The notes beneath the pieces are model-generated. The model made no database searches. It worked only from the letters and a program-made list of their open reading frames with translations, and was not told where the DNA came from. A stretch of DNA of 57,932 nucleotides from a virus, in the IMG/VR virus record IMGVR_UViG_3300027597_000005, positions 1 to 57,932 of that record. One strand, 5' to 3'. The translations under genes and the position numbers were made by a program. Positions 40,991 to 57,929 of this stretch are shown here, piece after piece. Each line of letters opens with the position of its first letter. The first letter of the stretch is position 1.

Positions 40991-41310
40991 AAGTAATGAA
41001 ACACCCATTTGCTTTGACAAATGATACATTAAAAGACCATTATATGATAATTGATGGCGACTACAAAGGTAGTGTTTATGAACTGAAAAATGTTCGCTTT
41101 GGTGGGGATGCTGAGATTATGTTTGATTTGGACTTAGTTGCATTGCAATTTAAGGAAAGACCAGTGACCGATATATTCCTTATAAATTACCATTTTGGTA
41201 TTATACAACAAAAGGTTAGTGATTTGGTTGTTGAAGCATTGAAATCGTATATTGATGCCAATACAGATAAAGAAGCTGCCAACATAGCGGACAAACCTGT
41301 ACGTGAGTGA
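40987..41310 (+). CDS. Hypothetical protein
   Basis: 107 aa, coupled to the methyltransferase by an ATGA overlap. Alternating strand/helix pattern with MIIDGDYKGSVYELKNVRFGG, suggestive of a small beta-barrel N-terminal half and a C-terminal helix. No family recognised. Confidence 0.6.
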   Translation: MKVMKHPFALTNDTLKDHYMIIDGDYKGSVYELKNVRFGGDAEIMFDLDLVALQFKERPVTDIFLINYHFGIIQQKVSDLVVEALKSYIDANTDKEAANIADKPVRE

Positions 41311-41617
41311 AAAGAAAAAACTCATACGCCAAAACTTTCGTGAGTCTGTTTTTGGACGTGACGGATATAAATGTGTCTTTTGTGATATTACTGAAACCCT
41401 TGATGCACATCATATAACCGATAGAAAAGAAATGCCAAACGGAGGCTATGTTGCCTCTAATGGCATTTCTTTATGTCATGAACATCATATGTTAGTTGAA
41501 GATTGGCATGTTTATGGTGAAGTTATAGAAGAACGTTATCATCCAAATAATCTTTATCAGATGGTTGGAAGTTCATACGAAAAGGCATATTTGGATTCTT
41601 TGAAATTGGGGAATTAA
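41303..41617 (+). CDS. HNH endonuclease
   Basis: 104 aa with a GTG start overlapping the previous gene by 8 bp. HNH module: VFGRDGYKCVFC (C24, C27), DAHHITDR (H36/H37), GGYVASNGISLC (N53, C58) and H61/H62. Complete zinc-supported HNH, no extra DNA-binding domain. May be a free-standing homing-type nuclease or a packaging/host-DNA nuclease; no nearby interrupted gene is seen. Confidence 0.8.
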   Translation: MSEKKKLIRQNFRESVFGRDGYKCVFCDITETLDAHHITDRKEMPNGGYVASNGISLCHEHHMLVEDWHVYGEVIEERYHPNNLYQMVGSSYEKAYLDSLKLGN

Positions 41618-56255: not shown

Positions 56256-57929
56256 ATGGATAATGTGACGAAATACTTTAGAACACATCACCTACCTTGG
56301 TCAGAAGCCGTGGCAGATGATGACGTTGTTGCTAAATCACCATTTACCGAAGTGGATGAAGTCGTCGTCACTATTAAGATGGATGGTGAATGTTTTATTT
56401 CAAAAACTCCTATTTTAATGTATGACGGCACAAAAAAGTTTATATCTTCAATAAAAATTGGTGATATTGTTGCTGGTGAATGTAACGGGGAAATTATACC
56501 ATCATTTGTTACTAAAACTTTTTTTAATGGAAATACTAATGATTGGTGCAGAGTGTGTTTTGAAGACTTATCTGGTAAAAAATACAAAACATTAATTTGC
56601 ACATCAACCCATAATTTTTTTGTTGATGGTGTATATAAACCAATACATGAGGTTAGTATCGGTAATGTTTTAAAACATTTGAAAAATAATAGAGTATGTC
56701 ATGACATACAAAAACAAATAATATTGGGTAAGTTATTAGGCGATGGTTCTTTTGGAAAATATGGAACTATGCAGTACACCCATAAGTTAGAACATATTGA
56801 GTATTCTAATTACATAAACACTATTTTGGGTGATGTTTACTCTGGGTCATGTATTGATAAAAATTATAATAGTTATAGTAAAAAAGAAAAATATAAGTCA
56901 TGGACTAAAAGTTGCAACACTATTTCTTTGCTTAAACAGTTAATGATAAAAAATAATAAAAAGATATTTCCTAAAGAGTTAATTGAAGAAATATCACCAT
57001 TATCATTGGCTATACTTTATATGGATGATGGAAATATTAGTTATAACAAGCTACCAATTATGCATATATCAACATGTGGTTTTGATTTGGAGTCATGTGA
57101 GAACATCCGTAAAGTTTTTGACATATATGGTATAAAAACAACGTTAACCAATAGTGATGGATATTTTTATATCCATATTTCGGCACATTCAGTTAATGAT
57201 TTTTGTGAGTTGATATGCAAATATATACCCCCTGTTATGCAGTATAAATTACCGGATTTATTTAAAAATAAATTCGAATTATTAGATGTAAATTATAAAT
57301 CTTTTAATGAACAAGAATTAAAAGATGTTAGAGTTAAAAGTATTGATTTTATAAGTGGTTCAAGATATACTGGAAAATATGACATCGAGACAACCACTCA
57401 TAATTATTTTGCCAATGGTGTTTTGGTTCATAATTGTACTTCTTTATACCCTTCTGGTCGTTGTCATGCGAGAAGTATTGATAGTGGTAATCACCCTTCC
57501 CGTGATTTTGTGAAAGCCTATTGGCGTGACCGTGCCCACTTACTACCTCATGGGTGGCGTGTGTGTGGTGAAAACCTATACGCCAAACATAGTATTCATT
57601 ATGAAGACTTGAAGGCATATTTGTATGTTTTTTCAATATGGAATGAACATAATATGTGTCTTTCGTGGGATGAAACGGTTGAGTGGGTAGAAATGCTAGA
57701 ATTGGTTCCGGTTGAAGTCATATATCGTGGATTATATGATGAAACTGAAATTAAGAAGGCTTTCCTACCACATAAGGAAAGACATGAAGGGTATGTGGTG
57801 CGTAATGCCAATTCATTTCATTACAGTGATGCTTCGAAAAACTTGGCCAAGTATGTTCGTAAGAACCATGTTCAGACGAATGAACATTGGATGTTCCAAG
57901 AAATAGTTCCAAATAAAATAATAAATTAA
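56256..57929 (+). CDS. RNA ligase interrupted by an intein
   Basis: 557 aa precursor from the ATG at 56256; an upstream open frame from 56076 overlaps the lipoprotein and is rejected. Nucleotidyltransferase motif I is KMDGE at residues 41-45 (catalytic Lys), immediately followed by the intein (46-393). The C-extein (394-557) carries CTSLYPSGRCHARS, a motif IIIa-like YLYVFSIW, motif IV HEGYVVRNAN and motif V KYVRKNH. The spliced product would be about 209 aa, a compact RNA ligase of the kind phages use to repair nicked tRNA. The precursor should be inactive until splicing. Confidence 0.85.
   Translation: MDNVTKYFRTHHLPWSEAVADDDVVAKSPFTEVDEVVVTIKMDGECFISKTPILMYDGTKKFISSIKIGDIVAGECNGEIIPSFVTKTFFNGNTNDWCRVCFEDLSGKKYKTLICTSTHNFFVDGVYKPIHEVSIGNVLKHLKNNRVCHDIQKQIILGKLLGDGSFGKYGTMQYTHKLEHIEYSNYINTILGDVYSGSCIDKNYNSYSKKEKYKSWTKSCNTISLLKQLMIKNNKKIFPKELIEEISPLSLAILYMDDGNISYNKLPIMHISTCGFDLESCENIRKVFDIYGIKTTLTNSDGYFYIHISAHSVNDFCELICKYIPPVMQYKLPDLFKNKFELLDVNYKSFNEQELKDVRVKSIDFISGSRYTGKYDIETTTHNYFANGVLVHNCTSLYPSGRCHARSIDSGNHPSRDFVKAYWRDRAHLLPHGWRVCGENLYAKHSIHYEDLKAYLYVFSIWNEHNMCLSWDETVEWVEMLELVPVEVIYRGLYDETEIKKAFLPHKERHEGYVVRNANSFHYSDASKNLAKYVRKNHVQTNEHWMFQEIVPNKIIN
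56391..57434 (+). other. LAGLIDADG intein in RNA ligase active site
   Basis: 348 codons. Begins with Cys (block A CFISKTPILMYDG), block B TSTHNFFVDG, dodecapeptides ILGKLLGDGSF and LAILYMDDGNIS (LAGLIDADG homing endonuclease), block F KYDIETTTHNYFANG, ends VLVHN before +1 Cys. All splice residues are present. It is AT-rich like its flanks. Confidence 0.9.

Follow-up and report, generated by a model that had tools for sequence, protein, structure and literature searches.

A class 1 LAGLIDADG intein interrupts a phage RNA ligase one codon beyond the motif I site occupied by most of its relatives

The 57,932-bp stretch of DNA analysed here (the window), which is the whole of the virus record IMGVR_UViG_3300027597_000005, harbours a phage RNA ligase gene interrupted by a class 1 LAGLIDADG intein. 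With a probability of roughly 0.9, the locus represents an ATP-dependent RNA ligase of the Rnl2 fold that has been invaded by a splicing, homing-type intein of a lineage residing in motif I of viral RNA ligases, with the insertion site shifted by one codon. Judging from the sequence comparisons presented below, it is this shift that makes the intein unusual, together with the required Cys at a position where nearly all relatives of the ligase have Asn.

The precursor is encoded by an ORF of the + strand, which starts with ATG at 56256, ends with TAA at 57927-57929 and contains 0 internal stop codons; the choice of the start codon agrees with intein-free homologues (e.g. L123 and L132), which align from residue 1. 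The contig ends three bases past the stop codon of the ligase ORF, hence the region downstream of the gene lies outside view, and the record is probably a genome fragment. The span 56256-57929, under which a sequence-only reading had described the intein, is correct for the ORF, whereas the intein itself occupies 56391-57434. The calculated molecular masses of the precursor, the intein and the spliced ligase are 64.6, 40.0 and 24.7 kDa, respectively, the last of which is in agreement with the product of about 24 kDa anticipated earlier. The features of the locus are as follows:

56256..57929, + strand: complete precursor ORF of the intein-interrupted RNA ligase, 557 aa (ORF, Pfam; start matches aligned intein-free homologues)
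56256..56390, + strand: N-extein, 45 aa, ending ...TIKMDGE; motif I with catalytic Lys41 in extein numbering (K41, D43 and G44 present in all of 217 sequences, Glu at 45 in 212 of them)
56391..57434, + strand: intein, 348 aa, a class 1 splicing domain into which a LAGLIDADG_2 endonuclease is inserted (Pfam/NCBIfam, homologous inteins, AF2, Foldseek)
56391..56393, + strand: intein Cys1, N-terminal splice nucleophile, precursor residue 46 (conservation of 90% or more among the aligned inteins)
56601..56612, + strand: block B TxxH, precursor T116-S-T-H119 (intein T71 and H74 invariant in 21 inteins)
56733..56747, + strand: first LAGLIDADG motif LLGDG, precursor 160-164, catalytic Asp retained (motif position, intein alignment)
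57021..57032, + strand: second LAGLIDADG motif MDDG, precursor 256-259, catalytic Asp retained (intein D212, D213 and G214 invariant in 21 inteins)
57396..57437, + strand: blocks F/G, THNYFANGVLVHN, then +1 Cys (TIGR01443 intein_Cterm above cut-off)
57435..57926, + strand: C-extein, 164 aa, starting CTSLY, with HARS, GEN..KHS, EGYVVR and AKYVR motifs (PF09414, PHROG 24030, conserved catalytic columns)

Between the ligase flanks, the precursor matches the Pfam families LAGLIDADG_2 (PF03161, E 1e-20) and Intein_splicing (3e-6, under the Pfam gathering score), and the NCBIfam model intein_Cterm (TIGR01443) scores over its cut-off. Cys46, the TxxH motif and H392-N393|C394 define a class 1 intein, while the two motifs with GD and DD acids, the PF03161 match and the fold are those of a LAGLIDADG homing endonuclease. 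The C-terminal splice junction falls after base 57434 (THNYF at precursor residues 381-385, VHN|C at 391-394); in the alignment of 21 inteins N348 is invariant, and V346 and H347 are conserved in at least 90%. The earlier statement that the splicing and endonuclease motifs are intact is thus upheld for Cys1, TxxH, HN, the +1 Cys and both LAGLIDADG acids. An AlphaFold2 model of the intein, for which 18 homologues were supplied, reached a pLDDT of 93.3. The best solved structures found by Foldseek were the TliVMA, PhoVMA and PI-SceI inteins and, for the endonuclease part, I-WcaI and I-SceI (TMt 0.71-0.75); I-SceI is the nearest solved endonuclease by sequence comparison as well. With the VMA1 intein PI-SceI and the TliVMA intein the window intein shares a Hint splicing domain carrying an inserted two-motif LAGLIDADG endonuclease (with I-SceI, the endonuclease part), but their host proteins and sites are different, and they are only 12-26% identical to it. 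Since homologous inteins occupy either this codon or its neighbour, and the intein fold is predicted with high confidence, a chance arrangement is excluded. A scan of the whole 57,932-bp record revealed the ligase intein as the sole intein-like match.

The precursor matches the Pfam RNA_ligase family (PF09414) over residues 401-534 only (E 1.7e-22), whereas the joined exteins (residues 1-45 + 394-557, 209 aa) fill the model, covering positions 1-171 of 171 (E 3.6e-28), and so outscore the precursor as a ligase. In addition, a match to PHROG 24030 'RNA ligase' was obtained (E 6.9e-65). In a comparison of 217 sequences, all near-invariant catalytic residues of the ligase were present in the window exteins; extein residue 178, however, is Ala, where 98% of the relatives have Phe. 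The predicted spliced product is a PF09414, Rnl2-fold RNA ligase with motifs I, Ia, III, IV and V. The intein lies one residue after KxDG, as had been proposed.

For structural modelling of the spliced ligase, L292, an intein-free relative that likewise carries Cys at +1, served as a stand-in (pLDDT 91.7). The ligase domain of this model resembles T4 RNA ligase 2 (Z 16.3, 178 residues, 2.7 A), and the Naegleria RNA ligase was also matched. Against solved structures the ligase-family profile retrieved no ligase by sequence; ligases were matched by fold only. T4 RNA ligase 2 shares the ligase fold, as seen via the L292 model, but is devoid of an intein and has a C-terminal domain of its own; its motif reads KIHGTN, versus KMDGEN/C in the window family. 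In the model, the strand that ends with the catalytic Lys176 is followed by strand 180-185, at the beginning of which the insertion point (Glu180|Cys181) is found, and it is plausible that a precursor carrying the intein at this place is inactive before splicing.

In most discussions, RNA ligases of this type are regarded as enzymes of tRNA repair; no tRNA genes were found in the window (1-57932). In many relatives, such as L180 and L292, the ligase is fused to an HNH-like part. The window ligase is without it, and a stand-alone 104-aa HNH protein (window 41303-41617), matching the N-terminal HNH-like part of PHROG 24030 (E 3e-17), is encoded 15 kb away.

The complete motifs suggest the following course of splicing. 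The precursor would be translated whole, Cys1 would attack the Glu-Cys bond and the acyl group would be transferred to the +1 Cys, whereupon cyclisation of Asn would free the intein and the exteins would be ligated as KMDGE-CTSLY, yielding the enzyme of 24.7 kDa. The endonuclease, for its part, would be expected to cut empty motif I sequences in DNA, and repair would then copy the intein in.

Seven related inteins were found in distantly related viral RNA ligases, where they interrupt motif I one codon earlier than in the window (KLHG|C in L191, KIHG|S in L192-L196 and KLHG|S in the mycobacteriophage Dallas group), which corrects the earlier opinion that an RNA ligase is an uncommon host for an intein. 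In this set, the joined exteins of L191 and L193 were scanned and match PF09414, accompanied by T4_Rnl2_C in L191 and by an OB-fold domain in L193. The Dallas group, comprising Mycobacterium phage Dallas and five other Omegavirus records, carries class 1 inteins with LAGLIDADG in RNA ligase motif I but differs from the window in the site one codon earlier, in Ser at +1 and in a distantly related ligase. Its public annotation is mostly 'RNA ligase' ('HNH endonuclease' in phage Hannaconda), with the intein unmarked.

The counterpart closest to the window is found in L180 (IMGVR_UViG_3300031949_000001; L190 and L270 denote the same contig), a 379-kb viral contig in which a ligase of the same family is interrupted at the same codon, KMDGE|C, with Cys at +1 (junctions MEKMDGE|C...VLVHN|CTTMY). 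The two inteins are 38-41% identical. The L180 ligase, unlike that of the window, has an N-terminal HNH-like domain. A tree of the inteins unites the nine that sit in RNA-ligase motif I in one clade (100/99), from which the DNA-ligase, motif III, RecA and helicase inteins are excluded, and inside which the window and L180 inteins are sisters (93/96). Both lie one residue past the usual KxHG site of the clade, after KMDGE, and the window intein is therefore presented here as a shifted variant at the motif I site rather than as its ordinary occupant.

Other ligase inteins were also encountered. Pseudaeromonas phage KLEP7 has an 'intein-containing RNA ligase' (UNY40322.1), likewise with a LAGLIDADG intein, but this one is inserted at a different, motif III-like site (GEWAG|SNIQK) and does not belong to the motif I clade. 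KLEP7 (L003) and the IMG/VR contig L199, the inteins of which are sisters (100/98), have this second RNA-ligase site close to motif III in common (GE..G|S(S/N)IQK). Meanwhile, two ATP-dependent DNA ligases, L197 and L260 (around 2001), contain inteins directly after motif I (KMDG|CRM and KVDG|CRL), indicating that motif I of the wider nucleotidyltransferase superfamily has been invaded repeatedly. L004 (Bacteriophage sp. record), considered as a further ligase intein, was rejected, its host being a helicase-like protein.

The ligase family is widespread, with relatives in 353 viral stretches and at least 504 in prokaryote genomes; a single-protein search of IMG/VR returned no relatives, and they were found through alignments. 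At the +1 position, 217 distinct family sequences have Asn in 195 cases, Gly in 10, Gln in 5, Cys and Ser in 3 each and Val in 1. One viral scan used a pattern favouring N or Q, but Asn is also dominant in the 80 prokaryote-genome sequences found without that constraint (Asn 68, Gly 10, Ser 1, Gln 1). Few members of the KMDGEN family thus offer a residue that could act as +1 nucleophile, and the intein depends on a rare Asn-to-Cys change in the active site of its host. One of the three Cys sequences belongs to the occupied contig (L190), leaving two that are intein-free: L292, whose junction KMDGECTTMY is exactly the predicted empty KMDGE-CT, and L082 with KFDGECSTLY. The sequence-only reading had proposed that empty junctions other than KMDGE-C would refute the intein; most homologues, having Asn there, would satisfy this condition, but it was the wrong test, as both the empty L292 allele and a second occupied allele (L180) exist. 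Apart from the window, the L180 contig alone is occupied among 243 C-extein matches in the loci that were fetched, and a DNA search for the pattern KMDGEC[FLIMV] likewise gave L180 as the sole ligase. The nine other matches to this pattern bear no ligase resemblance, and most have nearby stop codons in frame.

In KxHG ligases, the residue following Gly is a valid +1 nucleophile: the occupied forms have Ser or Cys at this place, and those empty alleles of mycobacteriophages that were examined have Ser or Thr. The near-invariant Glu after KMDG cannot serve as +1, and this would account for an intein placed one codon further, with Cys replacing the usual Asn. Either the intein entered a rare Cys allele like that of L292, or it brought the Cys change along. 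A more far-reaching scenario, which is offered only tentatively, is that the motif I lineage passed from ligases of the KxHG type to those of the KMDGEN type through the one-codon shift, and that the need for a +1 Cys selected or fixed, perhaps twice, the Asn-to-Cys change in the catalytic pocket. If this were so, a parasite would have altered a residue in the active site of the very enzyme that hosts it.

Mobility could be followed in the mycobacteriophage member of the clade, in which the intein is present in 6 of 45 records, the others having the gene without it, and in which its presence varies among close relatives. Dallas (L002, with intein) and Schatzie (L351, intein-free) are identical in 591/591 bases up to the insertion point, and the empty allele of Schatzie reads KLHG-SSSRVG, compared with KLHG-SSIRVG predicted from occupied Dallas; on the 3' side of the intein ∼300 bp are divergent, after which identity resumes for more than 600 bp. 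Such a presence/absence pattern with a divergent 3' tract indicates homing-like movement with one-sided co-conversion, an indication that would apply to the motif I clade, not to the copy in the window. The nearest intein-free allele of the window ligase is about 57% identical and no closer one is known; homing of this copy is therefore not visible. In the ligase tree, the L180 ligase groups with intein-free L037 (98/90) and the window ligase is placed elsewhere, although their inteins are sisters, which may hint at separate acquisition. A forced clade of the two ligases costs 16 log units and is not rejected (p-AU 0.137), so that one or two invasions are both compatible with the data.

That the intein still splices while its endonuclease is no longer mobile, being vertically inherited and degenerating, is possible but somewhat doubtful. 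The window ligase has no close empty/occupied pair, and the one other occupied contig among the 243 family matches carries an intein only about 40% identical; a dead endonuclease, however, would be expected to decay, whereas both LAGLIDADG catalytic acids and the whole fold are retained, and a clade member has moved recently in mycobacteriophages. The invaded ligase may also have suffered. With Cys replacing the conserved Asn at +1, and Ala178 replacing Phe, the spliced enzyme might be impaired, and the motif I Asn (Asn40) is reported to be important in T4 Rnl2. The stronger proposition, namely that the Asn-to-Cys change required for splicing leaves an enzyme whose activity is low or altered, the gene being a mere passenger, seems unlikely, as Cys in two intein-free homologues and Ser, Gly, Gln or Val in others imply that the position tolerates change, and the remaining catalytic residues of the window ligase are intact.

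It is highly improbable that the locus is an assembly chimera or a fusion of two genes. The GC content of the insert (27%) is lower than that of the N- and C-exteins (42% and 39%), and the gene is situated at the contig end; nevertheless, the frame is open across both junctions, the splice motifs fall exactly at the boundaries, and the same architecture recurs in the independent contig L180. The invasion of an RNA ligase gene by a splicing, homing-type intein remains the preferred reading, in favour of which the low GC content of the insert also counts.

Phage RNA ligases are repair enzymes, which are believed to act against RNA-cutting defences of the host. With the inteins described here, RNA ligases join the list of recurrent intein hosts, and motif I emerges as a recurrent site for the motif I intein family. 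Among the titles and abstracts listed in a literature search for intein and RNA ligase, none describes an intein in an RNA ligase. The literature examined contains no description of motif I RNA-ligase inteins, although absence is not proof, and the GenBank label on KLEP7 concerns the other site. A survey from 2016 found mycobacteriophage inteins close to active-site motifs, but the word 'ligase' is absent from its text (PMC5050341). The occupied KxHG|S and KxDGE|C alleles, together with the empty ones with N, C, S or G, constitute a natural set that could be used to test how an insertion site is chosen and shifted, and whether active sites of host proteins are constrained or altered by the need for a suitable +1 residue.

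Finally, a break of ∼1.36 kb in the ligases of Lak phages was considered as an intein and rejected, since it holds a TnpB-like frame instead. In Prevotella phage Lak-C1 (L018, 2755-4113), this insert lies ∼82 residues into a homologous RNA ligase, and its other frame, if TAG is translated as Gln, specifies a TnpB-like product bearing the zinc motifs CNCCG/CPNCG, the element being IS605- or IStron-like.
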